DNA from: a virus
Virus record (IMG/VR): IMGVR_UViG_3300009164_000138
Span: 1 to 44,080 of that record
Length of the DNA stretch: 44,080 nt
Strand: one strand, 5' to 3'
Shown: one piece after another, positions 4,901 through 43,617 of the stretch
Position numbering within the stretch: position 1 is the first letter of the stretch
Layout of the letters: the number at the start of each line of letters is the position of its first letter
The notes under the pieces: model-generated
Database searches by the model: none
What the model saw: only the letters and a program-made list of their open reading frames with translations
What the model was told of the DNA's origin: nothing
Position numbers and translations under genes: made by a program

Positions 4901-7900
4901 TTGCACTATCGGGCGCAGCATCACTGGCATCACTGGCAGTTCCTGTACCCACCGCGGTGCTCACTGTGTAAGGAGTAAGGATTGGACTCACAAACTGATT
5001 AGGAATCACATTGGTATCATAGTACGCAGGCACATCAAAATCTGTGAGTGTTCCTTGATAGTCATCTAATCCGTTGTAGATGAGATTTAGTTCACGAATC
5101 TGTACATGGTACGGTTTGACTTCCTTGATATAATCAATCACAAAATCTTGATTGTCTTTGCGGTAGGTCTGGTATGGCAACAATTCACGGATGGTGTGAT
5201 CCACATCAATCAGCGAGGTCTTGCTCAACCAATCGGGTGCTTCAAACTCACTCAACACAAAGTTGAACATCAAGATCAATGCACGATTGCGTTCTATCAA
5301 CAATTCATCAACCAACAATTCCTGATTGATGGCCTGGATTATTTTACGGGTTTCGATCACGGGTTCCTGATCAAAGTATTGTGCATCAAACACTTCAACA
5401 TCAAATCCAAATCTACCCAATTCGTAATCCCACAATACAGCAGAAAGTTCTATAGTACCATCTTGTACTGCAACTCTTTTCCAGGTACTAGTGGCTGCAC
5501 GAAGATAGATTTCCCATTTACCTTGGGCATTAGAAGTTACTCGTACACTAGATCCCACCGGGGCCTGATACACGCTTAACTTGCTGAGATCGCTGTATAC
5601 TGCTACCGTGGCAATGATCTGTTTGCTACGATTGTAGCCGGGCAGATACCAATCAACATGACTCCAATATCTACGAGTGTCATAGTTCTGTACTCGAACT
5701 AGATCTAATGTAGCAAAAGTCTTTGTTGATGTCACGCTGTAGATAGTCCATAGACCATTCTGAGATGCATCATTGACCACTAGATATAGATATCCCACAG
5801 GTACTGTGGCAAAGTCTTGATAACCAAGTTCTTCAAGATTCAGCACTCGCTTGTTCCATGCGCCAGACCCTGCAGGTGGTTCCGGTTCTCTGCTGTACAG
5901 CAATGGAAAACTGCGTATCTCAGTGATAGGATATTGTAACAGCACTGAGTTTACTCTAGTGAAATAATTCTTCAATGCCAGGAATCTGTCAGCAAACATG
6001 CTCTGGCGTGGTCTGAACTGCACACCATAACGATTGGCTATGCTGAGACCAGGATCAGGTACCTTGGCACCAGTCGAATTCACACCGCACAAACTGTCCT
6101 GTAATTTGAGATACAAGTTATCAGGCAAGAATCCATCAGCACGGTCTTGTGGAATTAAACTGTATTGCACATGAACATTGGCATCTGTCAGTTCTCTATC
6201 AAACTCAATACTGAGTATGGTGTCTTGTGCAGAGATATCATTCACAGCATTGTAGATACCTGTAGCACTGGGGCTCAGGAATGCCACATAAGGAATACCC
6301 GAACTGCGAGGATCTTCAATGTATCTTGCAATACCAGTAGTGCTGAGTGTTTTTCCTGAGCTGGTGTTAATGGTAGTTACACCCTGGACCCAGAAATAAT
6401 AAGTGGTAGCAAAAATGTTATCGGGATTTAATCCAGTGATTACATTGTAACTCACAACATCACGAGGAATGCCAGGGCCGGTATAGTTTGCTGGTGCTAC
6501 ACTACTGCTGACCCATTGATAAATTGATACCACAGATCCTGGAAATACTTGTCCCCAACGGCGTGCGGCATAGGTAACGTTATCCTGATTAGGGTCAATA
6601 AATCTCACTGTGCTGGTATCCCACCAGATTTCTCCCACATGTGTAGCAGCCCAGATCCTACCATAGTTATTCACTGCACCCACATTGTAGGCTGCAGGAT
6701 CTATAGCACCAATGTAATTGATATTTTCTGCTGCTGCTCCTAGAATCTTGCCTTGCAATGGGTCAAAGAAATCAAAGAATGCAGTCTTGGCCCCAGTCAT
6801 TGCACTATAACTGTACACTGAATTGATCAATGCAATGTCAACCACCGGTAACTGTTCATGTATCACAGCCCATGCTGGAGATTGATTGGCGTTTCTAAAT
6901 ACCGCCACACGGCCATAATTTAGCTCACTTAAAGTGCTGTCATCAACATCACTGCCCGGGCTACCTACTATCAGCACACCATTGGTGTAACTTACTGCGG
7001 TTCCAAACTGATCTAATTCTCTCACTCGTTTATCGTATATCTGCTGTCCGAACACAAACTTGCCTGGATTACTGACCGAGTCACCAATGCTGCGTAGATA
7101 ATCATATGTGTATACCACACCGCTTTGATACAATGGTCCATTGAAAGTGGTGGTGCGGCTATCAAAGTATGTTGTGCCTGCATCAAATGTGTTTGGACGA
7201 TACAGGTTACCGCTTGGTGCACCAACAGTGAGAGTCAGTGCCGAAGTATCAATATTTACAGCAGTTCCAAATCCGGCATTTATCACCGGTGCTGGGCTGG
7301 TGATGGTCTGAGTATACACAAATGTATTGAATCCAAGACTTTGGAACACAGTTCCAATCAAGCCGGGCAATACCGTGAGTCGGTTACCTTCTTCAGAAGC
7401 CAGGAGATTCTTAACACTGATAGTCAATAAACTGTAGTTACTGGTACCCGATGCACCCACTGTGGCGATAACATTAGCGATACCTGAAGCGTTAATATCT
7501 TGTGCCAGCACAGCTGGCCAGCTGCTGAGTTGCCAATATGTAGTGTTGGCAAGTGCTGTGCCTGCTGGTACGGTGCGTATAGCAATGTACAAGATCTGTG
7601 CATATTCCACGATATCGTCTTTTGCGTAGGTACTGGCATTGCTCCAATAGTCGGGTGTGCTCACCGCGACTTCTTGATCATTGATCCTGAGAGTTTGCCC
7701 GGGCACCAACAATGTACTAACATTGGTACTTGTGATTGTACCATATACTCTGCTTTGATTTACATTGCGTTGTACCGATCCTGCACTATCTAATACAGAA
7801 CTATCCTGTGGAGCTCCTGTGTATAAGCTGCAACTGTATCTGCAGATGTCAACTGCTGCACCAAAGTTTGATCCAGAGTTTGGAACATTGGCACCAATGA

Positions 7901-10900
7901 TTTGCAATAGATTAAATGTGTTGGCTTGTATCTGTAATATGTCTCCCACTGCTAAAGTTGAGGTGACTGTGACAGTGGGGCCGCTTACAGAGAAAGTTCC
8001 AGTTATGTTTCCGTCTGTGTTGGTTAGGAATGCATTGTTCAATATCACAGAAGTGGGTGTTACCAGTAGATTTCCATCCACTGTGTAAGAAGTTTGTGCC
8101 GTATCAGTTATGACAAAGTTCTGTACTGAACGATCGTAAACATACACAGTACCGGCGTTCTCAGTGCCATCACGATAGTCATTGGGTGTTCCAATCATGA
8201 CCTGCCTGCCATCTATAGTGCAGGCTACACTTTCGCCAAATCTAGCATTGTCAGGCAATCTAGCAGTGATGTTGGCTGCTATGATTTGTCCCGGAGTCAC
8301 TTGATATGTACCAGTACCACCAGTTCCAGTGAGCAATGCTGTGATTCTGGTACCTTTGGCCACCCCAGTACCACTCAGGATCATACCTTCAGTGAGAGAT
8401 GGTGCACCAACTGGTACTGCCGATACAGTCATTACACTACCAGATATTGATGCGGTAAATGTTGTAGTAAATTCAATAGTGTCAACAAAAGTGTAATAAC
8501 TGTTTGTGGTCACAGTGATAGCTGCGGTAATCACAGGTGCTGTGACAAATATCAGATCTCTACCTACGCTGCTGTTATCAGCATTGAATGTGTAATCAAT
8601 GTTAGGTCGTTGCAGAACACCATTTACTATTACTTTGAAACTGTAGATGTTAATTGCACTGTACAATTTTTCGTTTAAAGAGAATGTTCTAGTTGTGCCA
8701 TCGCCAACATAAGATGCAGTGGTTCTACGGATAATCTGTAATACAAGATCACTTACAGGTGCTGTACTGAATACAATACTAGTGCTGGTTTGTGTATAAT
8801 CGACTCCATATGTCAACAACTGATTATTCAACACCACTGTGATTTGTTCAGGCTCTTGGAAGTCAATCACTATGCTGTCACTGTAGTTGAAGATCGTTGT
8901 TGTACCGTCGGTGGTATATTTCACACTTTGTGATTGGACTTCGACTAATCCGTAAGCAAATACTCTGTTGATACCAGGCGCACCAATGTACATCCATCGT
9001 TCATCGCGACTTACTGCCACGCTGTAGCCAAACTCTGCTGAATATTGTAAATCTCTAGGATCAGGAACTGTGAGTATAGCTGAATTGATAAAGCTGGCTG
9101 TGCCCGGAGTACGATATATTACACTGACATAACCTCGGTTGTTATAACTGGCAGGAGCTCCTGCTGCTTGCCATGTTTCGTTACCGATGCTGATTGCATG
9201 TCCAAATCCCACAGTGTCTACTGCATTACCCAACTGAAGAATAGAGTTTTCTACAAATGGATTGATTGATGTGCGGATAAAAGTATAAACTGCACCCACA
9301 TCTGAATCGTATCCCGGACTGCCCACTATGACATATAAATTGTTTTTGCTTTGTGCCACGCTGTGGCCAAATTGACTATCAGACTCTGGGGCTGTTGTTT
9401 TGATTTCTGCCGAGGATACAAACACATCCTGTTTTTCTAACACTTCCCAAAGTCCTAGTCCATTATTGTCCACCCATACTTTGTTGCCAGGAATCAAACT
9501 GTTGGCATAAGGTAGTGTGATAACATCACTGGCTTGGCTTACTCGTTGTGTTTGTAGCACAAATCCAACCCCGGCACCTGATGCAGTGATCTGATTGGCA
9601 TTGACAAAACTAAAAACAGCTACCAGTTGATTAGGATTTGGTACATTTAATACCTCGTATACACCGTTGACTTCATCTGAGAAGAATCTTACAATGAACA
9701 ATGTACCAGCTGTAATACCATGTGATTGTGTGAAAGTAAACACGCTAGTACCATCGAGATTTGTGGTCACTGAGCTCAAGTAACCTGGCAATTGACTGGT
9801 TCTATAAATTCCCCAGTCGTGATTGTTGATCTTGGCTACCCAGATCACTGTTCCTACACCAATGAGATCAATAGCGGCATTCAATGCCGCAGTGTTGGTG
9901 ATATCAAATATTGTAACATCGACATCGTCAAAGTTTACATATCCTGCACTGGGCAAAGCCGTGTCAGTCACAGGAATTGTAGTTGCGGTCAGGATGTTAG
10001 GGCTAGTAATCTTATAACTGGATTTCCATAGATTGCTTAACAATACTGTTTGGTCAGCTAGGCTAGATTCGCCTGGAATCACAACTTGTATTGTGCCAGG
10101 ATTAGATGTCAACAATGCTTCATTGAGTTGAAGTTCATAGAAACTACGATTTGCATTAGCACCATATGTGCCACGCAATACAGCCCAATTTTCGTAGATA
10201 TCATATTGTGTGACACCACGACCCAGGTCAGCAAATGAGAATATCTCAGCGGCACGCAATGTACCTTTGCTGCCCAGGAACTGTTGATACAGGCTGACCT
10301 GACTGGTTGAATCCAGATTCAAGTTCACCATGTATTGTCTAGGTTTCCATCCAATCAACGCATATGCAAACAAGTCTTGATTTAGTTCAAGGTTAGCTGT
10401 GTAGATGCTATAGGTGTTGGCCAATTGATCACTCTTGTTGGCCAAGTTAGGTAGTAATCCTTGTTGAACCAAAGTATAATCTGATATGGTCCAGTTGTTG
10501 ATGTCAAATTCAGCTGACGGTTGTACAATGTCAGTGGCACTGTAGTAAGTGTTTTTCCATTTTACAATCTCGCCACGGGCGTATTTCTTCAGTGGATCCC
10601 AAGGCTTGATGTTGTCTTGATTTAAGATAAAACCTTGTGCGTCCAATTGGCCGTTCCACTCAGTGGTAGTCCAACCTACTAATCTCACACGACTTTGTCT
10701 CGCACCTGTGACCGGGTCGTACAACAGGTCAGCAAAGATACTGGTGTTGTCCAACACAATCATGTTTTCGTAATTGGTAAATTTGATGTTAAGGAAGTTG
10801 ATGGTTTCAGGAGTCAGACTTCTGATGGTAAATGTGTTATCAAGTCGTTCAATCACAAGATCTCTAGCATTGAACGGAGTACGATCTGCATTGAGCACCA

Positions 10901-13900
10901 TGTTTTCCACGGTCTGCACAGCAATACTATCCACGATAGCACCTGGTCGTTCTACGATCAGTTCAGTGGCGCCTGGGTTGAGATTGATAATAGTTCCGGT
11001 ATCCCAGCCTTGATTGCTCCAATACAAGAATTCACTAACCATCTGGTTCCAATCAAGCACATAGCCATTTTCTAATGTTTTAAATATCAGGCCTTGGCTC
11101 TGTAGCAATGCACCATAACTCAATAAGAAATCTGCCACCAAAGTCTGATTTGTAAACACATAGCCATAAGGAATCTGTACCACATTGTTTGTGTAGGTAA
11201 CCGGAACTCGTACCGAAGTACCACCTGCAGAAATGGTGGCTAGGTTACCATTCACTTGACTCTGTAGGATATTAAAGTATGGTTGGCTCGTGTTGTAACC
11301 ATATACAGCCCAGCCGGTGCTGGTGCTTTGTACAATCACGCTGGAGTATGTGAGTTGTGCAAACGGTACATTCTTATAGAACAACAAATTATAACTGTTA
11401 TCAGGCAACAATAGGCTAGAATTTAAACTATTAGGGCTGGATTTTTCTGTGTATATGCCCAATAGATTCTTTCCTGAGAAAGACGCCATCCTGTAGCATA
11501 ATCTCACATCAAGATTCTTGAGATCTGCTGTGAGTGCTGTGGTAGAGTTGATACCGCTTTGGCGATTGAAATCCACGATCCAGTTGATGTAACTGGCTTT
11601 GCTTGTGCCATTGCCATATACTTCTATGCCGTTGGCATCCAATCTGTAACGACCATTGTACAAATATTGGTTGTAATCAGTTTCAAATTTGTACAAGTCT
11701 CGGTCAGCAAACAATGAGAAGAATTCAGCAGGACGAGTCAACGCCAACAGTCTCATGATCGCAAACGGATATGAGCTAGATGTGCGCCATGCATTTTCCA
11801 CAGGGCCGTCATCGCCGGCTACCCAACTACGGCGGAAATTGGTGCTGTTGAAATTTCCTACCATGACTTGCATAGGACTCAATAACGCACCTTCACTACC
11901 AGCAGGTATCACATCTAACAGTCCTGAACGAACATAGTTGGGTCGTACATAGGGAGCCACAGGATCTCTTACCAATCCCTCGGCAAGATCACTCCATAAC
12001 ACCAAGTTACCCGATGTGTAAGGAGCAGGACCATATTGATTTTCCCACCAGATTGGTTGTTCACTGAAGCCTAACATTTCCCAAGGTCTAGTATTAGGAT
12101 AGATTGTATCGTAGAAATAATTGTAAAGACCGCGCCAGGCACCGATTGTTAATGGTTCATTGGCAGTGAGTTTGTTCGACGCTGTTGAATAATTCCAAGT
12201 GAATTGATTGTTTGGCAAATACTCTTGTGTCTTGTAATCCAGTTTGTTCCATCCTACCCAGGTCAAGAAATCTTGATTCAATATATCTTGGATTTCTGTT
12301 ATAGTGTAGTCTGTGGTGCGGAACTCGCCGGGAATCACTTCGTCTGCTGTGAGTGGAATAGGATTGCCATCCAGTTTTAGGTTGTTGTAAATCCTGATTT
12401 CGTATTCCAACAACAATTCATCTCGGAAGTCTCCAAATGCCCTGGTGATACTACCGTCATGCCCTCGAATTACCAATGTAGGATTAACATAAGTTTCATC
12501 TAAGAAAATTTCCGGCACATAAGCAGGATACAATCCCAACTTGGTAGGAGTATTTGGTACATAACTGCCATAGGTTGTATCATATTCTTGTATGGCAACA
12601 ACATCACCCACAGCCAATGGTGATAGAATCGTGATAACTGGCGCATCGGTGCTGACCACATACCCAATATTTCTAGTCAATAATCTATCATTCACATACA
12701 CCAATAGACCTTGATAGTTGGCCGATGTATAATTGTAAACCTGTGTGAGATCAAACACCTGTCCGGTGATAGGAGTCACTGTGGTCTGTAGTTGTGTATA
12801 CACCGTGCCGGTAGGCAACATGTCACTCCAATAGAATGGATTAGAACTTGTACGACCTGTGTTAAGATCAGAAAATACTGCATCAAGTATTTCAGGAATT
12901 GTGAGATTTACATAATCCCCAGTAACTGCTTGATTCAAGAACTGTGCTTTGAATTTTTCATATAGTCTTGAATTGTATTCTAATGATGCAAATATATCAT
13001 ACTCTGGTTTACGCAGGAAATAACCTGCTAATGTCATCGGTGAGCTTTGTTGCAGAATGATCAGACCATAAGGAACAATGTTGCCCAGGTCTCTTGAATT
13101 ATTGGCACCGTTGATCTTACCAGTTAGATTTACAAGATTTTGTGCAATGCTGTCATAATGAGTGCGGATAGTTCCTAGCGTAAAACTAGAACTATTGCTA
13201 TTCAACGGATTGTTTTCCAAGTTGATAGGTACTTGATAGAATCCTACAGTACTGACCTGATCGCTGAGTGCCAATACTTCAATCACATCACCAGGCACTA
13301 TGATTGCATTTGGGCCAAATGTGATTGTGGTTGTGTTGCTAGTGGTAATATATGAGTAAGTACCAGGATCTTGAAAAACGCTGCCTACAAACACCTTGAC
13401 ACTGGGCACAACTCCAGTAGGAACCACAACTGCTACATCCAACACCAATGGGGTATTCACTGCATAAGTGAAGCTGAATTGTTGATAGATCTGACTCTTG
13501 ACTTCAGCTGTTTGCCAGCCAATTTCTTTCTGGTAAACAGTTCTATCGGCGTATTGCTTTACATATCCAATGCTGACATTTTCAGTTGTGCTGATATTGT
13601 CTTTGACATAGATAAATGTATCTGAATACAGGTTGTTGTCAAATACAATATCTCCCACATTGTTTAAACTTAGATATCTCAATGGGAATCCCAACACCGT
13701 GTCGGCTATGCCACTGGTGCCAAGAGCATAACTGAATAATGCGTTACCACCAACAATATCTCCAAGATTATTTTTGGTCGTTGAGAATGAAGAGCTAGGG
13801 TACACAGCAAGATTGCCCAAGCTGTATCCGTTTTGATCATATACATCAAACATAGGAGTTTGATTTATAGTGGTCTTTTGCTGTGCCTGAGTCCAGGCCA

Positions 13901-16031
13901 CTCCGTCATATCTAAAAGTGGTACCTTGCAATGTAACTCCACTCAAGCACACCACACATTGATCCACTAATGCCAGTGCATCATCAGCAGGCACTAGATC
14001 AATAACAGGTTCGGCAACCAATGTGCTGTCAGGCAATGGACCGGTAGCCGGGTTGATAAAGTTGACCACATATATTTTGTTGCGTACTTGTTCGTCAAGA
14101 TCTTTTGCAAAAATTACTCTGGTGCCTTGTTGGAAAATATATCCATCCACTGCGTATCCGATCTGGCCATTGATGTTTGACAATGCATCAGTTTCTCTTA
14201 GATCAATGATATTCACAGGCTGCTTGGCTTGTGTGCCCATGTTGTACAATCTAGTGCCGCCGCGGAATTCAATGATTGGTCGTTTGGCTCGTTGTGCATT
14301 GTCCAACACAGCCGTGGTATTATTGTAAGCAGCACTTGCTGTGATCACATCAATATGGAACCAACGATTTGATCGCGCCCATGCATTGAGATCAGGACTG
14401 TCCAATGCCATGGTGATGTAATCTAATTGTAAAGGTTGATTCAAACTGCCATCAAAGTTTCCTACATCAAATGGCAAAGAGTCAAATGGTATAGTGGAAC
14501 TCTCAGTATAAGGTTCGGGTGTGACATAATTGCCGACTGGTAATAGTTGTATCGCAGTTCCCACGCCGGCCACATAATAAGTTTGATTCTGATAACTGGT
14601 AGGGATCACACTACCACGGAATGTGATCTGCATGTTGTTGGTAAATGCCACACCATTGGGAGAGATATAAGTTTTCTTGCCCAGTATGTCTGTATCTATA
14701 TTGATAGTCTGTGCCTGTGTAGGATCAACTATTCTGATCTGTCCAAAGATTTCTGGGTTGGTTCCGTCCTGATACCACAATAGATCTTTCACTGCGGTCA
14801 ACAGAGGAATCTGTTGGAAATAACCTTCGGCATTGCGATACCATTGTGTGGTGCTCCATTCGGTACCAAACAACACAGTAAACTTGGTAAACTCTGCACA
14901 AGGTGTTACAGATGACAGTTTGAGGATTGGCTCGCCACCGGTGGTGTATTGATATTGTATCAACCATACGCTGTACCTAGTGTTGACATCTAATATAGGA
15001 GTGGTCTGGTCAAATGTGAGATAATCGTAACTGCCCGGCAATCCATTATTGCTAGGGATCTGAGCCAATGGATCAAATTGTGTGGTGATCAACCAGCCGC
15101 CAGATTCTGGATCGGCGATAGTATTGGTAAAAACTATAGTACGATTCTGCAGATTAGTGATGCCATCAATTCCATTGGGATATTGTTCTAAGAATGCACT
15201 CAAGAACACATTGTTGACTTGGTCAAATTTCAATGTAGTGGTCAACAAATCTACTTGCCCGGCAGTGGGCAAACTGGGTATAAGGTCTAGATCATAATAA
15301 AATTGCTGTGCATTTTTGTATGGAACATCAAAGGTTATTTTACCTGAGTCTTCACCGTTGTTAGTAACACCTAACACAGTTCTTGAACTGATGTTAGGGG
15401 CGTAAGGTAATACACCATTCACACCTGGCTCTGCTTGTATCCAGAATTGATTAGGTGCTTGGTTGACCACAAACTCGTAGTTGCCGCCGCGAACCAAAGT
15501 GATTGTGGGATTTTCTCCGGCCACGCCCGAAAACTCATAATAGTTGTCTGCTCTGGTTACATCAAATGTATCAGTGGTTGGAACAACTGTGGCGCTGACA
15601 TCCACAGCTAATGGACCTGCGGGCAACCAGTAGTATTGACTATAGTTAGAAAACTTGTCGAAACTTATAAAAGGATCCCAGCTGTAATATTCACTGGTGT
15701 ACAGTCTTGCAGCATCGTTGGTGAATCCACCTTGGCGTGCAATAGCATCTGTGATACCCGGATATGTGACGGCATCTGAGATCTCATTGGTGTCGGGCAC
15801 CAGGCTAATCACTCCTGGCTCAAGTTGATAATTGGCTCTAGAGGCAGTGGGTTCAACCACATAGTAGTCGTTAGGGTTCACACCCGGCCCTACATGGCGT
15901 CCTACAAATCCTTGTGTTTTCTTAAATTGAGGTTCTTGGACCAATTGATCCAGCGTGGCCGCTAGGAACTGCTTGTTGGTAGTAGTTTGGAAAATTGGTG
16001 GTAGAAAATCTACGGTTCTGGTTCTAGCCAT
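1977..16031 (-). CDS. Giant multidomain baseplate/tail structural protein (4684 aa)
   Basis: One uninterrupted frame of 4684 residues, about a third of the window. The start at 16031 overlaps the gp6 stop by one base (TAATG). It lies where T4 has gp7/gp8, and an N-terminal motif like [20 protein letters not shown] (about residues 115-135) resembles, from memory, large structural proteins of T4-like cyanophages. Seven FG-GAP-like repeats have FG phenylalanines at 2221, 2276, 2334, 2598, 2723, 2921 and 3009, suggesting one interrupted beta-propeller. Three W-x4-Y ... V-x-[YW] modules (tryptophans 1811, 2796, 3836) resemble small carbohydrate-binding domains. Repeated beta-modules with a DGTT-x-x-F start and NG ... 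DYT core occur at about 2350-2470. The last about 70 residues form a related module (DGTTKTF, FATAP). [10 protein letters not shown] occurs near 513 and 4369. Likely a large peripheral baseplate or fibre-like virion protein; the exact role is unknown. Confidence 0.75.
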
Positions 16032-30060: not shown

Positions 30061-30900
30061 ATGATCAATGCATTTAAATTGCAGCGTCTCGATTTCATGG
30101 TTGCATACAGTTGCAACATAAGTTGTGCTGGATGCATCAGTATAAGTGATATCAAAAGATCTGGAATTGAACCCGTTGATCAACTGGTTGACAGCATCAA
30201 CAAGTGGAAGTTGTTAGTGAATCCGGAGATTGTTTCAATCTTTGGTGGAGAACCGTGTTTGCATCCTAAACTCCAAGATATTTGCTCAGAGATTCGAACT
30301 GCTTGGCCAAATGCTATAATCAGACTTATCACCAATGGGTATCTCTTGGATCGGTTTGATTCATCAGTATGGTTCGAGTTTTCACCTTTTGAAATGCAAG
30401 TAAGTATCCATAGGAAAGACCACGAATTACTGGTGAACAACAGAATAAAAAATATTTTAAACCACCGACGGCCTTGGAAAGTCACAACACAGGGAGGCGC
30501 TGATTCTCATCGTCAGATCACCTGGACTCATGATAATTTTGTTGTTTATAAAAGTATATTCAGTGACTTTGTGCCACCTTATAAAAAAGTAGAAAATAAA
30601 TTTTTACCATGGTACAGCGATCCAGAAAAAGCACACAAGATATGCGGGTCACCGAATACTCCTATCTTGTACAAAGGAAAATTATACAAGTGCCCAGCAG
30701 TGGCTAATATTATTGATATCACCAATGAAAATTGGTTTGACTATATCGGTGTCGACTGTGCCGATGGCCTTGAGGAGTTTGTTAAAAATATCGGCGTTCC
30801 TGAATCTGTTTGTGGACAGTGCCCGGATTTCTCTCAAGCAATTATTGTAAATCATCTTGACAAGGAGAATGTCATTGTCAGACATAAAAATATTAGTTAG
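30061..30900 (+). CDS. Radical SAM protein with SPASM-like C-terminal cysteines
   Basis: 279 residues. The radical SAM cluster motif CNISCAGC (C18, C22, C25; CX3CX2C) and the SAM-binding GGEP (62-65) are both present, followed by RLITNGYLL (88-96). C-terminal cysteines C195, C211, C233, C251 and C254 lie in the arrangement CG-P ... Y-K-G-K-L-Y-K-CP ... CGQCPDF, typical of SPASM/twitch auxiliary iron-sulfur clusters. Such enzymes modify peptides or small molecules; the substrate here is unknown. It starts 6 nt after gp47 and its 3' end overlaps the next gene. The A+T content looks higher than in gp47/gp46, consistent with acquisition. No precursor peptide was recognised nearby. Confidence 0.85.
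   Translation: MINAFKLQRLDFMVAYSCNISCAGCISISDIKRSGIEPVDQLVDSINKWKLLVNPEIVSIFGGEPCLHPKLQDICSEIRTAWPNAIIRLITNGYLLDRFDSSVWFEFSPFEMQVSIHRKDHELLVNNRIKNILNHRRPWKVTTQGGADSHRQITWTHDNFVVYKSIFSDFVPPYKKVENKFLPWYSDPEKAHKICGSPNTPILYKGKLYKCPAVANIIDITNENWFDYIGVDCADGLEEFVKNIGVPESVCGQCPDFSQAIIVNHLDKENVIVRHKNIS
30862..30867 (+). promoter_or_regulatory. Shine-Dalgarno AAGGAG that bears on start choice
   Basis: AAGGAG lies inside the end of the radical SAM gene. It is 1 nt before the ATG at 30869 but 7 nt before an in-frame TTG at 30875. The spacing favours TTG 30875 as the true start of the next gene, or both may be used. Confidence 0.5.
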
Positions 30901-34249: not shown

Positions 34250-35257
34250 ATGTACACCAACAATAATTTCTATGATCGATTGCGGGTTTGCTTGGTAGGC
34301 AGAAGTTGGCCTGCTGAGTTTTACTACTGGATAAAGAATTCTCAAGTAAGAGAAACCATGAAACGCATCGCCGTTGAAACTGAAGAGGATTATGCACAAC
34401 TGGTATCAGTTTTAGAAAAATTACAAATACAAGTATTAAGGCCCACAGTTGATCTAGATTTTGATGCCATAGCCGGATCAGATATGCCACCACCATTACC
34501 TCCAATGTGCCCCGGTGACCATATGATATTTTTTGATGATCAATTGCTCGAATCTGTATCTGCTGGCAAGAATTCCACAGTTTATCAACAAACTTATCAA
34601 TCGTTTTTCTCTCATGTGATTGATCAAGGCAATCAAATAGTAACTGTTGATAATCCGTCAATCTGTGCTGCACAATGTTTTCAGTTTGACGACCGGCTGA
34701 TCTACGGTAAAAGCAAACATCAATCTCATTCAGAAATTACACAGGCTTGGAAAAATTTAACAGACAAATCTATTATTGGATTTCATCTTGACGGGCACAT
34801 CGATGGATGGTTTTGCCCAGTGACCCCGGGACTGATAATCACCTCTTCGGACCCTGATAGATCTTCCTTGCTGTCTCTATTCTATAAAACGCATTTTAAA
34901 AACTGGAAAGTTGTTCATAGTGATCCAAGTGTTTGCTATGATACTAGTTTTCGACAATGGAAAAAAGAAAACACTGGATCTTGGTGGATACCAGGCGAAG
35001 AGAAGAATCAAGAATTCATTGATTTTGTTAATAGATATTTCAAAAATTGGATAGGAAATGTATCCGAAACTGTGTTTGAAGTAAACATGATTGTGGTCGA
35101 TGAAAAAACAGTTATTGTTAGAAAAACAAACAATCTTGAAGTATTACAGCAGCTGGAAGATCACGGAATAACAGTGTATCAAGTGCCGTTTAGGCACAGC
35201 ACATTCTGGGATGCTGGACTGAATTGTGTGACAATGGCAGTTCATCGTTCCAAATAA
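34250..35257 (+). CDS. Amidinotransferase-fold protein, short paralogue
   Basis: 335 residues, of the guanidino-group-modifying (amidinotransferase/ADI) superfamily. N-terminal DRLRVCLVGRSWPAEFYYWI and GH-I-D-G-W-F-CPVTPGL (H183, D185) match the 36924-38153 paralogue, as does FWDAGLNCVTM with the expected catalytic Cys326. It lacks about 75 residues present in the paralogue after residue about 105, and has Asn where the paralogue has His beside the cysteine (LNC versus IHC). This could change or abolish activity. Members of this fold transfer or hydrolyse amidino groups (for example arginine to glycine). The start directly abuts the gp46 stop with no clear Shine-Dalgarno, so translation is probably coupled. 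Confidence 0.8.
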   Translation: MYTNNNFYDRLRVCLVGRSWPAEFYYWIKNSQVRETMKRIAVETEEDYAQLVSVLEKLQIQVLRPTVDLDFDAIAGSDMPPPLPPMCPGDHMIFFDDQLLESVSAGKNSTVYQQTYQSFFSHVIDQGNQIVTVDNPSICAAQCFQFDDRLIYGKSKHQSHSEITQAWKNLTDKSIIGFHLDGHIDGWFCPVTPGLIITSSDPDRSSLLSLFYKTHFKNWKVVHSDPSVCYDTSFRQWKKENTGSWWIPGEEKNQEFIDFVNRYFKNWIGNVSETVFEVNMIVVDEKTVIVRKTNNLEVLQQLEDHGITVYQVPFRHSTFWDAGLNCVTMAVHRSK

Positions 35258-35317: not shown

Positions 35318-35746
35318 ATGACATGGCTATATCAAAACAACCCAGTAGAGACATTGCCCGAGTCATGCGTAGGATTTGTTTACTTGATCACAAATAATCT
35401 CACTGGACGCAAATACATAGGCAAAAAACTGGCAAAGTTCTCAAAGACAACTTACAAAACAGTCAAACAAAAGAACGGCATCAAGAGAAAAAAGAAGATA
35501 CGAAGCAAAATTGATTCAGATTGGCAACAATATTATGGATCAAGTGCAGAACTATCCGCAGACATCGAACAACTAGGCACCGACAATTTCACCAGAGAGA
35601 TACTTTTCTACTGTGCAAGCAAGAGTGAATGCTCATACATTGAGGCACGCGAGCAGTTCAGTAGACAGGTATTGGAATCACTAGATTATTACAATGGCCA
35701 TATACAGGTAAGGGTACATGGCCGCCAAATCCTAAACAAAATTTAA
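35318..35746 (+). CDS. GIY-YIG-like nuclease (142 aa)
   Basis: The motif GFVYLITNNLTGRKYIGKK (about residues 19-37) is the variant GIY-YIG core (VYLI ... KYIG). It is followed by a lysine-rich segment (about 52-64) and YYGSS (about 74-78), an element shared by a compact GIY-YIG-like family of T4-like phages. The end, YYNGHIQVRVHG, also fits that family, so the gene looks complete. It may be a homing-type or DNA-processing nuclease; which is unknown. It is the last gene of the plus-strand operon, 60 nt after the amidinotransferase, and lies beside a candidate structured RNA. Confidence 0.75.
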   Translation: MTWLYQNNPVETLPESCVGFVYLITNNLTGRKYIGKKLAKFSKTTYKTVKQKNGIKRKKKIRSKIDSDWQQYYGSSAELSADIEQLGTDNFTREILFYCASKSECSYIEAREQFSRQVLESLDYYNGHIQVRVHGRQILNKI

Positions 35747-36483: not shown

Positions 36484-36927
36484 TTACTCCAGTGGTCCTA
36501 GTATTTCAAATCCATCAATCTCTGACTTGTAGAGATGTGCTTGTTCCAAGTACAGGTATTGAAAGCCTTGTTCTTTGTAGATGGCACATTCTGTTTTCAT
36601 AGTTTCTATGCCCATGCGTAGTCGAGGTCGATGATAAGTCCATGCAAACTGATCGCATTGTGCATTGTGCTGATCAAATCTGCGTATCAGACTCCACGCT
36701 ACCAGTCGACCAGCATCATAGTATCCAATCAAGTCAGCCATGGGATCTAAGTATCTAGAATGGAACATAGGCATTACACTTGCAAAGTGTTTGTAGATGC
36801 AGTAGGTGCGATAGATGTCATCTAGCTGGGCCAATACATCGGGTCCACGGTCGTTGATGTACCGCCATTCCACTGTGGGTTTATAGTTAGTCCGGGCAAG
36901 GTCGATTCTAGCAAATTGATATGTCAT
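36484..36927 (-). CDS. Putative GNAT-like acetyltransferase
   Basis: 147 residues. Segments such as DLIGYYDAGRLVAWSLIRRFD (strand-turn-strand) followed by QFAWTYHRPRLRMGIETMK and FQYLYLEQ fit the general fold order of GNAT N-acyltransferases. The Q/R-x-x-G-x-G/A acetyl-CoA loop is not clear, so I call it GNAT-like only. The start overlaps the amidinotransferase stop as ATGA, which suggests coordinated production and perhaps a shared pathway. Confidence 0.5.
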   Translation of the reverse strand: MTYQFARIDLARTNYKPTVEWRYINDRGPDVLAQLDDIYRTYCIYKHFASVMPMFHSRYLDPMADLIGYYDAGRLVAWSLIRRFDQHNAQCDQFAWTYHRPRLRMGIETMKTECAIYKEQGFQYLYLEQAHLYKSEIDGFEILGPLE

Positions 36928-38153
36928 GCTCTGCCCGGAAAAAAATCTTGCTGAGTTCCTGCTCGATCAAGATCTAGTGTAACACAATGTATTCCACCAT
37001 CCCAAAAGTATCTGTGTCGCAAAGGACAGATATGCGGAGTTATACCATGGCGTTCAAATGCGTCAAACGCCTGTTTGTTGTAACCGTTCACAATGACATT
37101 TTGTTGATCAATTGAAAGAATGTTTACATCAAACACACTTTCTTCAACATATCCTACCCAATCTTGTAACCATGTTTCTACATATTCAATCAGTTCAGTG
37201 TCGTATTCGCTGCCTTTGATCCACCACTTGCCTTGATTTTTTTCCTTGAGATCTAGAAAAGATTGTACTTTGCTCCAACTCTCACCGGGCAAATACACAA
37301 CTTCCCAGCCAGGGAATGTATCTGCATAGGTAGGCATGTCTTCTATGCTGACGATAAGGCCAGGTTTAACAGGAGCGAAACAACCGTCGATATGCCCACC
37401 AGTGGTTACTATATGATTTCTATAGTCCGGAAAAAAATGCTCGGTTAGCTTTTTAATGTTGTCAATGTCGGAATCTGCCGATATTCCAAAAAACAAATCT
37501 TGGCCAATGCGAGTGACTCCATTGGCCGGAATCTGATTCAAAATGTCATGATACTGATTTTCAACCATGTGATTACCTGCAGACCTCACAAGGTCAGTAA
37601 CCGGACTCCACCATTCAAACTCACTGGTTTTAGATATGATTTCCTCGGCATCATCACCGGGCTTGAACTCAAACTGAAACAGGCTTTTACATTCGGCCTG
37701 AATCCAGGTTGGTAATTGATCAAACGGAGTAAACTCTTGTGGCCAATCAGGACCTCGGAGATTTTTGTAATTTTTTGTGGTCCAATTTGTTGGAGCCATG
37801 AGATTTCGACCAGAAGATTTTATGGTGATATTGTTGTATGGAAATACAAAAAATTTTGATCCAATCATGATCATCTGATCTCTTGGAATCATGCTCACAG
37901 GCCCGGGTATGCGACGATTTTGTGTTAGCAATCGGTCTAACTGTACTGTGGGTACATTTGGCCTTACTACCTGCACATTGAACTTTTCAAGCAATGCCAC
38001 AAGATTTAAAAAATCTTCTTCTGTTTCTGTAGCGATGCGTTCAAACAAACTGCGTAGTCTTGGATTTTTTATGAAACTGTAAAACTCAGGAGGATAACTT
38101 TTTCCTACTACACAAACTCTCAAAGGATCCCAAGGTTGATGTACACTATACAT
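36924..38153 (-). CDS. Amidinotransferase-fold enzyme, full-length paralogue
   Basis: 409 residues from ATG 38153, which has AAGGA at a good distance; an upstream TTG frame extends into the previous gene and aligns less well with the paralogue. Visible are WDPLRVCVVGKSYPPEFYSFI (8-28), GGHIDGCFAPVKPGL (H254, D256) and FWDGGIHCVTLDLDR with catalytic-type Cys390 preceded by His389. This is the expected pattern of glycine/arginine amidinotransferase-like enzymes, a superfamily that also includes deiminases and hydrolases. Substrate unknown. It overlaps the 170-residue gene by 8 nt and the GNAT-like gene by 4 nt. Confidence 0.85.
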   Translation of the reverse strand: MYSVHQPWDPLRVCVVGKSYPPEFYSFIKNPRLRSLFERIATETEEDFLNLVALLEKFNVQVVRPNVPTVQLDRLLTQNRRIPGPVSMIPRDQMIMIGSKFFVFPYNNITIKSSGRNLMAPTNWTTKNYKNLRGPDWPQEFTPFDQLPTWIQAECKSLFQFEFKPGDDAEEIISKTSEFEWWSPVTDLVRSAGNHMVENQYHDILNQIPANGVTRIGQDLFFGISADSDIDNIKKLTEHFFPDYRNHIVTTGGHIDGCFAPVKPGLIVSIEDMPTYADTFPGWEVVYLPGESWSKVQSFLDLKEKNQGKWWIKGSEYDTELIEYVETWLQDWVGYVEESVFDVNILSIDQQNVIVNGYNKQAFDAFERHGITPHICPLRHRYFWDGGIHCVTLDLDRAGTQQDFFPGRA

Positions 38154-38658
38154 TTGTTTTCCTTGGATCAAGTCGATTTTCAAACAGGCCCTGTAAGTAA
38201 TCTTCAGGCCATGAATGATAGAAGTCTTTGGCTGCTAACTGCTGTGCTCGTTGATCGAGATCGCTTAGACTCTGCACCAGGCTCAATGCGTATTTGCCTT
38301 GATTCATGATCACGCCATTGACATCTTCAACAGCAGCTGGATGGTCTTCCAGCACAATCAAATCAGCTGCAAGTAAAAAATCTCGATTGGCTGATTTCAA
38401 TCTAGGTGAAAAATATTCCAGTGTCCACTCTCCTGGATCATATGCGTAGATGATAACTTGATATTGTTGCATACCTTGGGCAGCACGAGATTCAAGATCA
38501 AAGTATGGTTCTTTGCCGATGAATATGCCCACAGAGCCTTGAAGCCGTGCTTGCCGTGCAAACGGACAAGGAGCCCAGTTACCCAGTGCCGGATGCGGAA
38601 CTTCAACAAAATTCTCCGACCAGGTTAATATATCTTGTGTGACTGTTTTAATATCCAT
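38146..38658 (-). CDS. Unknown 170-residue protein with CPFA motif
   Basis: Starts at ATG 38658, overlapping the stop of the chaperone extension by one base (TAATG). HPALGNWAPCPFARQARLQG (about 22-41) contains a CPFA motif of a type seen in small unknown families; I do not recognise a function. The C-terminal half is helical with DLIVLEDHPAAVEDVNG. It sits between a tail assembly chaperone and an amidinotransferase and is translationally coupled to both. Being in one operon with accessory enzymes suggests it may belong to the enzyme group. Confidence 0.6.
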   Translation of the reverse strand: MDIKTVTQDILTWSENFVEVPHPALGNWAPCPFARQARLQGSVGIFIGKEPYFDLESRAAQGMQQYQVIIYAYDPGEWTLEYFSPRLKSANRDFLLAADLIVLEDHPAAVEDVNGVIMNQGKYALSLVQSLSDLDQRAQQLAAKDFYHSWPEDYLQGLFENRLDPRKTNV

Positions 38659-38891
38659 TAGAAGAATGGCAATCCAGATTTCTTAGTTGTTTCTAAGTTG
38701 TCTTTGATAATCTCGTTGATTATCTCTCGTTCCTGTATACTCAGAGCCATGGCTTGATCATAAGTTAATCCACCTCTCATGAACCAACTCATTTTCATAG
38801 CCTCCTGGCGTATGCTTTGACAATCTTTTTCCATGCGATCAACTAGCTTGTCGATCTCCTCAGGATTAGAGCTCAGGAGGCGTTGTCGAAA
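38658..38891 (-). CDS. C-terminal extension of the tail chaperone, read by -1 frameshift
   Basis: The reading frame continues from the slippery site 38894-38888 to the stop at 38658, encoding about 76 residues (FF-RQRLLSSNPEEIDKL ... ending TTKKSGLPFF). It is in the -1 frame relative to the upstream chaperone. Upstream frame continuation to 38948 gives no sensible start and lies inside the chaperone gene; the first internal ATG (38834) has no strong Shine-Dalgarno. MSWFMRGGLTYDQAM and EREIINEIIKDN are family-like, as in tail chaperone C-terminal parts. The fusion product would be about 350 residues against 278 for the zero-frame product. Confidence 0.7.
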   Translation of the reverse strand, partial: FRQRLLSSNPEEIDKLVDRMEKDCQSIRQEAMKMSWFMRGGLTYDQAMALSIQEREIINEIIKDNLETTKKSGLPFF

Positions 38892-39709
38892 AAACTTGAT
38901 AGATCCAATGTGAAAGGTTGTGTGTAAGCATGAGTACAATGTTTGCAAGTCAGTGCCAGCGGTTGGATATCACTTTGTTGTTTGATCTTGATCACATGAT
39001 CTCTCAATTGATTGAAAATCTTGCTGTCACAGTTTTTTAGAAAATCAATGATGTATTCGGTTTCCTGCACCATGGCTTGAGGAGTTTTGATCACTGCGAT
39101 ACTCTGTGCTATGGTTTTGGTAGTGGTCTCTGTGATCAACATCATGCTGCGATTCAGTTGTTCTGCTTTGATTGTGTCCTCAACATCAGTTTCTAGTACA
39201 CGCATGGCCTGTTGTTGTGCCAACTGCACCTGGCTATTTTCGTTTACGGATTTGTAATTTATGGGTTGGAACCAAAATTCAAGATCACCAATGATCAAAC
39301 TTTGATCGTAGTCACCTATTTTTAATCTATCATTTACTATTCGTAGGTCCACTGAAATTTCATCTTCTGTGTCGCAAGCAGGACACTGAACATTAAGATC
39401 CATGGCATGCCCGTAGCTGGCAATACGGATACCCACTAGCACAGCGTCCATGTCAGCTGATGGCATGATCCAAGGATCCCTAATAGCAGGAACACAGCTC
39501 TTGATCACATTCACCGTGGCTGTGCCGTTGAACAAAGCATCCGGTGTACGATAAGTAATTTCATCCACGGAAGTCATGGGTAAAATTGGTATTTCACCAT
39601 TGGGCGGCATGTTGAGTGTGCCCGGTGGATAAAATTTGCCTTGGCTAGGCAACCGGATGTAGATTGCCGGTTGGCGGAAATATTGGGTTAAGGGGTTGTT
39701 TGGTAGCAT
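38873..39709 (-). CDS. T4_baseplate-family protein (gp26/gp51-like tail assembly chaperone)
   Basis: 278 residues in the zero frame. YIRLPSQGKFYPPGTLNMPPNGEIPILPM, given as YIRLPSQGKFYP (about 17-28), opens the family pattern. EITYRTPDALFNG, SCVP and the IASYGHAMDLNVQCPACDT region with a CPAC zinc-ribbon half follow. Another CKHC pair (LTCKHC, near 255) completes a possible zinc site. T4 gp26/gp51 are baseplate hub assembly proteins; their genomic place near the tape measure resembles lambda G/GT. The start has GAGGAAAATC before ATG. The end holds T_TTT_TTC, so a longer fusion is expected. It is divergent from the tape-measure-like gene. Confidence 0.75.
   Translation of the reverse strand: MLPNNPLTQYFRQPAIYIRLPSQGKFYPPGTLNMPPNGEIPILPMTSVDEITYRTPDALFNGTATVNVIKSCVPAIRDPWIMPSADMDAVLVGIRIASYGHAMDLNVQCPACDTEDEISVDLRIVNDRLKIGDYDQSLIIGDLEFWFQPINYKSVNENSQVQLAQQQAMRVLETDVEDTIKAEQLNRSMMLITETTTKTIAQSIAVIKTPQAMVQETEYIIDFLKNCDSKIFNQLRDHVIKIKQQSDIQPLALTCKHCTHAYTQPFTLDLSSFFDNAS
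38888..38894 (-). other. Programmed -1 ribosomal frameshift site T_TTT_TTC
   Basis: In the chaperone zero frame the codons are AGT TTT TTC GAC, that is X_XXY_YYZ with T TTT TTC, an ideal -1 slippery heptamer. It lies 12 nt before the zero-frame stop. A CTCCT/AGGAG stem (38879-38875 with 38860-38856) begins 8 nt downstream, a suitable spacer for a stimulatory hairpin. After slipping, the frame stays open to 38658. Confidence 0.75.
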
Positions 39710-39772: not shown

Positions 39773-41797
39773 ATGAGTGAAGCAGAACTACAAGCACTAA
39801 TAGACGATGGTTTAGCAAAGGTGCGTGCCGGTTCTCTGACTCTAGAAGAACATACCAAACGGGTAGCTGATGCGTCTAAAAATCTAGAAGGCTCATTGGG
39901 CAAACTGGGTACTACAGTTTCGACTGCGGGAACTCAGATCTATGGTGGAGTTGAAAATTTCACAAAATCCATGGCCAATGGTGCCCAAGGAGCATCAGCT
40001 TTTTCAGGGCTTATAACAGGGGCCACTGACGGCCTGGGCACTTTTGCAAAATCACTTGACAAGTTAGGTCCTGCTGGTGCAGCCCTAGGAGCATCCTTAA
40101 AAGGTATAGCAGATTTTGGTGCAGAATATGTGGTGCGTGCTCTCAAGCAAAGTGACGATTTATTCACTAGTTTCCAAGGTCTTAGCAAGGTAGGTGGTGC
40201 TGGCTCAGAAGGCATGAAGGGCGTGTTTGATAACATGCAGAAGCTGGGCATGACAATGAACGAACTACCTCAGTTCACTGCATTGATTGCAAAAAACAGC
40301 GAAGCATTGGCAGTGATGGGTGGTACAGTAGCCGAAGGAACTAAAAAGTTTGCCAATGTAGCCAGCGGTATAGAACAATCTGGGCTGCAGACTCAGTTTG
40401 AACGCATGGGTATTTCAGTACAAGCACAGAATGAAGGTATAGCCAACTATTTAAAACTGCAAACTTTGACCAGTGCCGGTGCTGTTAAATCAACAGAAGC
40501 ACTCACCGCCGGTGCCGCAGCATATTTAGAACAACAAGACAGACTTAGCCGACTCACAGGAAAATCAGCAGATGCCTTGGCTAAAGAAGCAGAAACACGA
40601 CAAGCCAATGAACGATATGCTGCTGTAACATTAGAGTTGCAGATGAAAGCTGATGCTTTACGGGCAGCCGGTGATGAAGCAGGTGCTAAAGCAGCTGAAG
40701 ATCAGATGAAACAAAATGAGGAACTATTATCAAGAACACCTGCTGCTTTAAAACAAGGAGTTCAAGATCTAATGAGCGGGATTGTAAACAGTCCAGAAGC
40801 TCAGAAAATGTATATTGCTATGCCTGAGATGTCTCAGAAAATCATGAGCCAACAATTCAAAGCGTCAGACACGCTGGCTGCTGGTGCTAAGGAAGCTGAT
40901 GCATATACTAAGAGAAATATAGGATTAGCCAAAGCAGGACTCAGTGACAAATCACAAGCGAATTTTGGAGGTGCTAGAGCCCTGGCACAACTAAAAGTAG
41001 AGGAAGGTGACAAAACAGCCAAGACAGAAATTACCACCCTCAAAGAAGGTGGTGACAAAGACATCAATAATCAAGTGGCCTTGCGTGATGCACAACGACA
41101 AACCACTACTGCCATGGACAACTTGATAAACAAAGGTGTGGGCCCGTTAAACACGGCTATGGCAACTTTGGCTACAAAAATATCTGACACTGTCACTTCG
41201 TTGCCACCTAAACTTGTTGGGGAAAAAACTGCTCTCAAACGAGAACCTACCAAAAAAGAAGCAGAACAAGGGCTTGATGTACGCCGAGGAAAATATGCAC
41301 CTGCCACTGCCGGCTACGACAACTCTAAAATTCCTGAACTGTCAACAGAAGATATAGCAAAAACTTGGAAAAAATTCACGGACAATGTTCTCATAAAAAC
41401 ACCAGAAGACCCAGACAAGAAGAAAAAAGAAGAAGAAAAAAAGAAAACTGAAAACACCCCAGACAACAGGCCAGTTATTGTACCTGGACCTGCTCCGGCA
41501 CCTAGCCCAGATAATAGACGACGGCCACCGGACAACAGACCAAGTTTTGATCTAAGCCGAGGTGCCGGTCCTGCATATCGTGCCCCGGGTGTATTAGAAG
41601 ATAATCGCCCAGAAAATCAAACCAGTACCAAATCAGCAACCGAAGAGTCTACTACAGAACTAGCAACAGTATTTAGAGACGGCGTTGAAAGGCTATCTCG
41701 TGGTCAAGACGAGCAACAACAAACACTAGATGAACTAGTTGATCTCATGCGTAGAAGTGTAGGAGTGCAGGGCAAGATACTTCAGACATCTAGATAA
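39773..41797 (+). CDS. Tape-measure-like protein (gp29-like)
   Basis: 674 residues, compared with 590 in T4 gp29. AAGGA lies 8 nt before the ATG. The protein is Ala/Gly/Lys/Glu-rich, mostly helical, with hydrophobic Gly/Ala segments (SGLITGATDGLGTFAKSL, about 80-97, and GPAGAALGASLKGIADF, about 99-115). The region of about 545-620 is Pro/Asn/Lys-rich and disordered. This profile and its place directly beside a frameshifting tail chaperone fit a tape measure or length-determining protein, which the chaperones coat before tube assembly. No lytic domain was recognised. Confidence 0.65.
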   Translation: MSEAELQALIDDGLAKVRAGSLTLEEHTKRVADASKNLEGSLGKLGTTVSTAGTQIYGGVENFTKSMANGAQGASAFSGLITGATDGLGTFAKSLDKLGPAGAALGASLKGIADFGAEYVVRALKQSDDLFTSFQGLSKVGGAGSEGMKGVFDNMQKLGMTMNELPQFTALIAKNSEALAVMGGTVAEGTKKFANVASGIEQSGLQTQFERMGISVQAQNEGIANYLKLQTLTSAGAVKSTEALTAGAAAYLEQQDRLSRLTGKSADALAKEAETRQANERYAAVTLELQMKADALRAAGDEAGAKAAEDQMKQNEELLSRTPAALKQGVQDLMSGIVNSPEAQKMYIAMPEMSQKIMSQQFKASDTLAAGAKEADAYTKRNIGLAKAGLSDKSQANFGGARALAQLKVEEGDKTAKTEITTLKEGGDKDINNQVALRDAQRQTTTAMDNLINKGVGPLNTAMATLATKISDTVTSLPPKLVGEKTALKREPTKKEAEQGLDVRRGKYAPATAGYDNSKIPELSTEDIAKTWKKFTDNVLIKTPEDPDKKKKEEEKKKTENTPDNRPVIVPGPAPAPSPDNRRRPPDNRPSFDLSRGAGPAYRAPGVLEDNRPENQTSTKSATEESTTELATVFRDGVERLSRGQDEQQQTLDELVDLMRRSVGVQGKILQTSR

Positions 41798-41817: not shown

Positions 41818-43617
41818 ATGGCAGAACCAAAACAAGGCTGGAAGAAGTATTTCAAAGTCGCAGATTTATCTGGACAGATGAGCCCAATCGCGGGCGGCAG
41901 AGATCAGGGCTTGCCCGGATATCCAAAAAACGACGGCCGACGAACCAATCAAGCGGACACTGATTTCAGTTTCAGAAACTATGCCAGCCGATTACCAGAA
42001 GTGTATTCCGGTCATCCAAATCGTATTGAACGCTATAACCAATACGAAAACATGGACGCTGACTCTGAAGTCAATGCATGTTTGGACATTATTGCTGAGT
42101 TCTCCACACAATTAAACGAACAAAACGACACACCTTTTGACATAACCTACAACGATGATCCTACAGATCACGAGATTGAAATCATCCGTAAGCAGATGCA
42201 GCAATGGGTCAAGCTGAACAAACTGGATCAACGCATCTTCAAACTGTTCCGCAATACCATCAAATACGGTGATCAAGTATTTGTGCGTGATCCAGAAACA
42301 TTTGAAATGTTCTGGGTGGACATGAGCAAAGTAGTGCGTGTGATCGTGAATGAAAACGAAGGCAAACGCCCGGAACAATACATCATCCGTGACATCAACC
42401 CTAACTTCCAGAACTTGACTGTGGCAGCCAAAACCACAACTGACTTCATGGTCAACCCAAGTTCAGGTGGAGCAGGTGGTATTGGCGGCAGTATGCAAGG
42501 CGGCGGCTACACAGCACCTAGTTCAGCCATGAGTGGTGTAAGTAGATTCAACCGTGCTGTGAATGAAACATGTATCGATGCCAAGCATGTGGTGCATATG
42601 AGCCTGAACGAAGGCTTAGACACATTCTGGCCATTTGGTAAATCAATCTTGGAAAACATCTTCAAGGTATTCAAGCAGAAAGAACTGTTGGAAGATGCTA
42701 TGTTGATCTACAGGGTGCAGCGTGCCCCTGAGCGTAGATTGTTCAAGATCGATGTGGGAAACATGCCCAGCCATATGGCCATGGCGTTTGTGGAGCGTGT
42801 GAAGAATGAAATGCATCAACGCCGAATCCCCACATATGGTGGCGGCGGACAGAACATCATGGATTCAAGTTACAATCCATTGAGCATCAATGAAGACTTC
42901 TTCTTTCCAGTAGGTGCAGACGGTCGTGGTAGCTCAGTAGAGATGCTGCAAGGCGGTCAAAACCTTGGCGAAATTGACGATTTAAAGTATTTTAACAACA
43001 AAATGGCTCGTGGTCTGCGTGTGCCATCAAGCTATTTGCCCACTGGCCCGGACGACTCAGACCGTGCGTTGACTGACGGAAAAGTAGGCACAGCCTTGAT
43101 ACAAGAGTATAGATTCAATCAGTATTGTGAGCGTTTACAAGCTCTAATCGTGCAGAAATTAGATGACGAATTCAAGATGTTCATGCGTTGGAGAGGATTC
43201 AATATTGATGCTGGCCTGTTCCAGATCAAGTTTAATCCACCGCAAAACTTTGCAAGTTATCGTCAAGCAGAGTTGGATACCACTCGTATCACAGCATTTA
43301 CATCATTGGAACCACTGCCTTACTTGAGCAAGAGATTCTTGTTGGAGCGTTTCTTGGGTCTAACAGAAGACGAAATCCAACAAAACTCCAAGCTGTGGAA
43401 AGAAGAACGCTCAAAGCCAGAAATGGAAAGTTCGCAAGGGCAAGATCTGCGTTCAGTAGGTATCACACCTGCTGGATTAGAAAGCGATGTAGCCATGGGT
43501 CAAGAGATGGGCAATCTTGCACCTCCTGGTGCAGCACCCGGAGCAGCACCTGGCGGCACCATAGGATCAACTCCACCGGCCCAACCACCGGCCGCTCCTG
43601 CCGCACCTGGGGCATAA
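41818..43617 (+). CDS. 20: Portal vertex protein gp20
   Basis: 599 residues, against 524 in T4 gp20. Clear gp20 hallmarks include VYSGHPNRIERYNQYENMDADSEV-N (about 62-85), FRNTIKYGDQVFVRDP, RAPERRLFKIDVGNMP, and the segment LKYFNNKMARGLRVPSSYLP (about 387-406). The portal forms the dodecameric ring at the capsid vertex through which DNA is packaged and to which the tail joins. A Gly/Ser-rich insert (about 215-245) and a Pro/Ala-rich tail (about 565-599) are extra to T4. It starts 20 nt after the tape-measure-like gene; its stop lies within a CATAAATA box. Confidence 0.95.
   Translation: MAEPKQGWKKYFKVADLSGQMSPIAGGRDQGLPGYPKNDGRRTNQADTDFSFRNYASRLPEVYSGHPNRIERYNQYENMDADSEVNACLDIIAEFSTQLNEQNDTPFDITYNDDPTDHEIEIIRKQMQQWVKLNKLDQRIFKLFRNTIKYGDQVFVRDPETFEMFWVDMSKVVRVIVNENEGKRPEQYIIRDINPNFQNLTVAAKTTTDFMVNPSSGGAGGIGGSMQGGGYTAPSSAMSGVSRFNRAVNETCIDAKHVVHMSLNEGLDTFWPFGKSILENIFKVFKQKELLEDAMLIYRVQRAPERRLFKIDVGNMPSHMAMAFVERVKNEMHQRRIPTYGGGGQNIMDSSYNPLSINEDFFFPVGADGRGSSVEMLQGGQNLGEIDDLKYFNNKMARGLRVPSSYLPTGPDDSDRALTDGKVGTALIQEYRFNQYCERLQALIVQKLDDEFKMFMRWRGFNIDAGLFQIKFNPPQNFASYRQAELDTTRITAFTSLEPLPYLSKRFLLERFLGLTEDEIQQNSKLWKEERSKPEMESSQGQDLRSVGITPAGLESDVAMGQEMGNLAPPGAAPGAAPGGTIGSTPPAQPPAAPAAPGA

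Follow-up and report, generated by a model that had tools for sequence, protein, structure and literature searches.

Organization of the Locus

The window, that is, the whole stretch of 44,080 nucleotides analyzed here (IMG/VR record IMGVR_UViG_3300009164_000138), carries on its minus strand a gene for a protein of the T4 gp26/gp51 type, TAC-N, the end of which is overlapped by a second open frame displaced by -1 (Table 1). The 3′ end of the gene reads AGT TTT TTC GAC AAC GCC TCC TGA, and the T_TTT_TTC heptamer of the original prediction is found by direct reading at 38894-38888, in the register and at the distance from the stop codon that had been reported. In the -1 frame the same sequence reads TTT TTT CGA CAA CGC CTC CTG AGC and continues without a stop to the TAA at 38660-38658, so that the frame is open to 38658 as predicted; a fusion of about 350 residues had been anticipated, translation gives exactly that number, and all of the coordinates given at that time were correct. 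A single heptamer near a stop codon is nevertheless weak evidence by itself, because about 50 in-register X_XXY_YYZ heptamers occur among the 13,729 codon positions of the genes of the window.

The TAA of the -1 frame and the ATG that starts the next gene (38146-38658, with a weak match to DUF6875) share a base in the sequence TAATG, and termination of the fusion may therefore be coupled to translation of that gene; in two of the homologous loci (L009 and L011) the sequence past the -1 stop differs and the start of a next gene is not seen there. Rfam and tRNA scans of the whole window gave no matches.

Table 1. Features of the chaperone locus and its neighbors, with the loci of distant relatives in which the downstream frame stands in another relation (positions preceded by the locus).
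Feature	Position	Strand	Basis or remark
Zero-frame ORF, 278 aa, TAC-N (T4 gp26/gp51-type)	38873..39709	minus	PF12322 T4_baseplate, Pfam 1.8e-12; PHROG 150 baseplate hub 3.6e-12
Slippery heptamer T_TTT_TTC	38888..38894	minus	Direct reading; in register (XXY YYZ = TTT TTC), 12 nt upstream of zero-frame TGA
-1 frame extension, putative TAC-C, all-helical, 78 codons from heptamer plus TAA	38658..38894	minus	tblastn, dN/dS and AF2
Predicted 350-aa frameshift fusion, TAC-NC	38658..39709	minus	274 residues of the zero frame, ending in ...SFF, and 76 of the -1 frame
674-aa protein, divergent neighbor, probable tape measure protein	39773..41797	plus	Between portal and TAC
Portal protein (T4 gp20 family), marker of the syntenic block	41818..43617	plus	PF07230, 6.6e-100
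+1/-2 relation of the downstream frame, distant PF12322 loci	L141:2294-2353, L142:3197-3256, L149:2161-2226, L150:2200-2265, L152:2164-2229, L154:2110-2175		

Conservation of the Slippery Heptamer

When used as a tblastn query, the 278-residue protein matched 63 phage records, nearly all of them from jumbo phages, at 22-39% identity. The loci compared comprised representatives of the phages matched in this way and more than 100 IMG/VR loci, which were located with protein patterns that leave out the heptamer. T_TTT_TTC stands in register near the gene end in 122 of the 130 loci with readable gene ends; it is replaced by T_TTT_TTT in one (XacN1), and the 7 loci without the heptamer are all distant relatives, whose matches are partial or at 22-25%. 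The jumbo-phage branch was defined as the 120 loci with the site that remain when two distant site-bearing loci are left out, which form 74 clusters below 90% identity, 40 below 70% and 12 below 50%. All 74 clusters of this branch have T_TTT_TTC, with a run of exactly six T followed by C, and in 73 of the 74 the base after the heptamer is G.

Elsewhere in the same genes, Phe is encoded by TTT in 61% and by TTC in 39% of cases, and the codons of the preceding residue end in T in 50%. With the amino acids given, this codon use predicts NNT TTT TTC with a probability of about 0.12 per gene. For its presence in every cluster, the naive probability is about 10^-11 when the 12 clusters below 50% identity are counted and 10^-37 when the 40 below 70% are counted. 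No full-length relative of the jumbo branch in which Phe-Phe is coded otherwise was found among the collected loci. Sequence comparison thus argues strongly that the heptamer is more than a chance occurrence, and it is the conservation that decides this.

Conservation of the -1 Frame

The -1 frame contains no stop codon in any of the 48 gap-free homologues, and the other frames have about five stops per sequence each. For 51 moderately distant pairs, the -1 frame has a dN/dS of 0.10, and the two remaining frames have values of 0.93 and 2.9; within -1 codons 8-19, which lie between the zero-frame stop and the commonest internal ATG, the value is 0.21. These substitution ratios show purifying selection on the -1 frame. 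Alignment of homologues, which the original prediction had suggested as a check, has shown that both the heptamer (122/130 loci) and the overlapping -1 frame (48/48 open) are kept.

The extent of the conserved protein also agrees with the position of the heptamer. In the jumbo branch the -1 stop lies at a nearly constant 71-79 codons past the heptamer, and the position of the zero-frame stop varies (13, 19, 22, 28 or 43 nt past it). When tblastn was queried with only the -1 peptide, the alignments start at residue 1, which corresponds to the heptamer, in 23 of the 23 matches listed, which are from jumbo phages. The -1 protein is conserved, beginning exactly at the heptamer, even where the zero-frame proteins share only 22-30% identity. 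An AF2 model of the -1 domain is confident and all-helical (pLDDT 90), and comparison of this domain with the PDB by VIA-align gave no clear match.

In none of the annotated jumbo-phage records examined (L001-L006, L016-L023, L025 and L026) are the two frames joined; the -1 domain is either uncalled in them or deposited as a hypothetical protein with its own, often too late, start. The heptamer can serve as a clean marker for annotating the long chaperone in jumbo phages.

Alternative Explanations for the Downstream Frame

The downstream ORF might be a separate small gene with its own start, at the ATG at 38834-38832 or at the one at 38792-38790 after AGGAGG, or might be reached by coupled restart at the zero-frame stop. 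In the window an AGGAGG lies 8 nt ahead of an in-frame ATG (codon 34); CBB_249, SCTP2_87, XacN1 ORF316 and others have been deposited as hypothetical genes from internal starts; and an ATGA overlap at the stop, as would suit restart, is present in Atu_ph07 and Phosso. These starts are, however, not conserved, the first ATG being found anywhere from codon 3 to codon 38. Past the heptamer, neither PAC2 nor Cassandra contains a single ATG, GTG or TTG, and RaK2 has none for 32 codons. The protein is moreover conserved from the heptamer on, upstream of the proposed starts, as the low dN/dS of codons 8-19 indicates, and a separate gene leaves both this stretch and the invariant T6C unexplained. Restart is opposed by codon 7, the site of the zero-frame stop in most loci, which is CTA, TTA, CTC or CTT in 40 of the 74 clusters. 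A separate gene or a restart is therefore very improbable. One candidate of this type, a gene of its own from the ATG at 38792-38790 with AGGAGG, was rejected, codons 32 and 34 not being ATG in L008-L012.

Slippage of RNA polymerase on the T run would yield the identical fusion protein, since one added U gives ...SFFR... exactly; a homopolymer is a typical substrate for this process, and a T7 run is present in XacN1 and RAS14. A six-base run is short for efficient polymerase slippage. Such slippage would be expected to favor longer in-frame runs, for example T_TTT_TTT, yet the run is held at six and closed by C throughout the 74 clusters, and the reading register never departs from the one expected for slippage of two adjacent tRNAs. 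The exact run of six and the fixed register therefore favor tandem tRNA slippage, and polymerase slippage appears quite improbable. It could also be supposed that the heptamer is coincidental and is fixed only by a requirement of the zero-frame protein for Phe-Phe, which is indeed invariant in the jumbo-branch protein. The mixed use of the two Phe codons and the resulting naive probability over the 12 most distinct clusters stand against this explanation, which also leaves the conserved -1 protein unaccounted for, and its likelihood is negligible.

Proposed Expression of Two Chaperone Forms

On the sequence evidence it is very likely that two chaperone forms, the short TAC-N and a rarer frameshifted TAC-NC, are produced from this one locus. 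Most ribosomes would translate the PF12322 frame to the TGA and release the 278-residue TAC-N. A minority would slip at the heptamer, tRNA-Phe on TTT in the P site and on TTC in the A site moving back by one base and re-pairing on TTT TTT; these ribosomes would then pass the zero-frame stop and complete the 350-residue TAC-NC, to which the 76-residue helical TAC-C has been added. By analogy with gpG and gpGT of lambda, the role of TAC-N would be to coat the tape measure protein and that of TAC-C to recruit subunits of the tail tube, and both TAC-N and TAC-NC would leave before maturity of the tail.

The conservation of the heptamer, of the frame and of the protein is established by the comparison of homologues. 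From it we infer the slippage itself, its ribosomal nature, its efficiency and the roles of both proteins. Both the -1 frameshift and the resemblance to lambda G/GT in the original prediction are well supported, the heptamer and the -1 protein both being conserved. The findings that it had named as counting against a frameshift (homologues with two separate, non-overlapping genes, loss of the heptamer, or unfused products only) were not seen in the jumbo branch; distant relatives, however, include loci without the heptamer, and T4 has separate genes.

A possible stem downstream of the heptamer had also been proposed. A hairpin located 8 nt 3′ of the heptamer does fold in the sequence of the window (-13.8 kcal/mol and z -2.0 when 46 nt are folded, but only z -0.85 for 80 nt), but it is not conserved, and no consensus base pair downstream of the heptamer was predicted by RNAalifold from 29 homologues. 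A Shine-Dalgarno-like element upstream of the heptamer was found in 0 of the 74 clusters.

Neighboring Genes and the Probable Tape Measure Protein

The order portal gene, gene for a large protein, and divergent PF12322 gene is common to CBB, GAP32, RaK2, 121Q, Phosso and PAC2. The 674-residue neighbor in the window has no family match in Pfam or PHROGs and no tblastn match; its counterpart in RaK2 was deposited as similar to tape measure protein. By mass spectrometry of CBB virions, CBB_251, the counterpart of this neighbor, was represented by 29 peptides, and CBB_250 and CBB_249 are not listed, a non-detection that is weak evidence (PMC5259590, Table 4). This result is as expected, if weakly so, for a chaperone encoded beside a virion protein. 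CBB_250, the PF12322 protein, is labelled "structural protein" in its record. Flavobacterium phage immuto and Bacillus phage SP-15 show the arrangement of lambda, with sheath, tube or tail completion protein followed by the PF12322 gene, then a small ORF, then tape measure or large tail protein. By analogy, the 674-residue neighbor is probably the tape measure protein. The original placement of the chaperone beside the tape measure is likely by analogy with more remote relatives, in which the genes for the tail tube and the tape measure flank that of the chaperone, but in the window it concerns a neighbor without a database match.

Several other genes of the window may be mentioned. The ORFs at 34250-35257 (+) and 36924-38183 (-) are divergently oriented and encode paralogous proteins, 40-45% identical in two blocks; the protein of 34250-35257 has no Pfam match, and the pattern of GHIDG and C-terminal Cys is reminiscent of amidinotransferase-type enzymes. 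A radical SAM protein (30061-30900, +; PF04055, 5.9e-7) is encoded amid T4-like replication and structural genes, a SegE-like GIY-YIG endonuclease is encoded at 35318-35746 (+; PF19835, 2.4e-32), and a single ORF of 4684 residues (1977-16031, -) lies in the tail/baseplate region.

Distant Relatives

In distant PF12322 relatives, a downstream helical frame is found in the +1 (equivalent to -2) relation, near T-rich codons for FF or FFW, often TTT TTT TGG or TTT CTT TGG. It is about as likely as not that the PF12322 family is widely recoded, with -1 frameshifting at T_TTT_TTC in the jumbo branch and +1 (or -2) frameshifting at TTT-rich FF/FFW codons in Flavobacterium immuto, Microcystis Mel-JY01, Bacillus SP-15, Rhodothermus RM378, L141 and L142. 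The fusion would then have persisted through a change in frameshift direction, and in T4 two genes would have replaced it.

Comparison with Known Systems

T4 gp26 (8.8e-64) and gp51 (3.9e-52), which are given as hub assembly chaperones (PMC3004832), match PF12322, the same model as the protein of the window. The locus can therefore be assigned to the TAC-N/TAC-NC pair of T4-like phages, because gp26 and gp51 both belong to this family. The C-terminal extension of gp51 aligns in register with the profile of the -1 domain by hhalign (E 6e-4, 32 columns), a weak match with a probability of only 28%. An AF2 model of TAC-N (pLDDT 85) matches models of T4-like hub-assembly proteins and of Aeromonas phage gp26. 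The HK97 chaperone 2ob9 was aligned with TAC-N by VIA-align over 102 of 107 residues with a Z of 6.0, which is within background, an rmsd of 4.7 and 3% identity; a Foldseek search of the PDB with TAC-N gave nothing better than E 1.3, no solved structure clearly matching.

According to the abstract of the 2022 study by Vladimirov and colleagues, frameshifting is reportedly retained in several T4-like groups, and T4 uses genes 26 and 51. The original prediction knew of no described frameshift in a gene of the T4_baseplate type; this part is superseded. The T4-like tail assembly chaperones were identified in that study (Vladimirov, Gautam and Davidson, 2022, Virology 566:9-15, doi 10.1016/j.virol.2021.11.003), which PMC12846349 cites for poly-T signals of -1 frameshifting in the TAC-N genes of this phage group. 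In the scheme of these authors, as given in PMC10885494, some T4-like phages do without frameshifting and have one gene for the short form and another for the long, fused form; an older review still named T4 as an exception (PMC5009743). The T4-like chaperones of that scheme, as far as they are described in the citing papers, resemble the present ones in belonging to the gp26/gp51 family PF12322, in having TAC-N and TAC-NC forms and, in the frameshifting groups, in the poly-T site close to the TAC-N terminus. This type of system has thus been described before, and the locus, as a further member of it, is of low novelty. The branch studied here, which extends from lake-water contigs to jumbo phages of the RaK2/CBB/121Q/Atu_ph07/PA5oct type, may or may not fall within the groups of Vladimirov et al.

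As with G/GT of lambda, the locus is predicted to give a short protein and a rarer -1 extension from a heptamer just before the stop, with the C-terminal domain made only as a fusion. The slippery heptamer of lambda is a different one, and to our knowledge there is no detectable sequence similarity between lambda G/GT and this chaperone. The lambda genes precede the tape measure gene on the same strand, whereas the gene in the window is divergent from its large neighbor. Among other phage families, Vandenendeviridae and Andersonviridae (phage Adele; PMC12846349) can be likened to the present branch by frame and motif, since in them, too, a -1 frame is conserved and a T-rich slippery motif, GTTTTT, closes TAC-N. 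T4 shares with the window a chaperone gene, gene 26, that is divergent from the cluster with the tape measure gene 29, and the extension of gp51 that weakly resembles the -1 domain; unlike the jumbo branch, it dispenses with frameshifting and has two separate genes, a short one and a long one that is read in one frame throughout. The branch therefore offers a natural comparison of -1 recoding, possible +1/-2 recoding and the two-gene solution of T4 as answers to the same problem of protein ratio.
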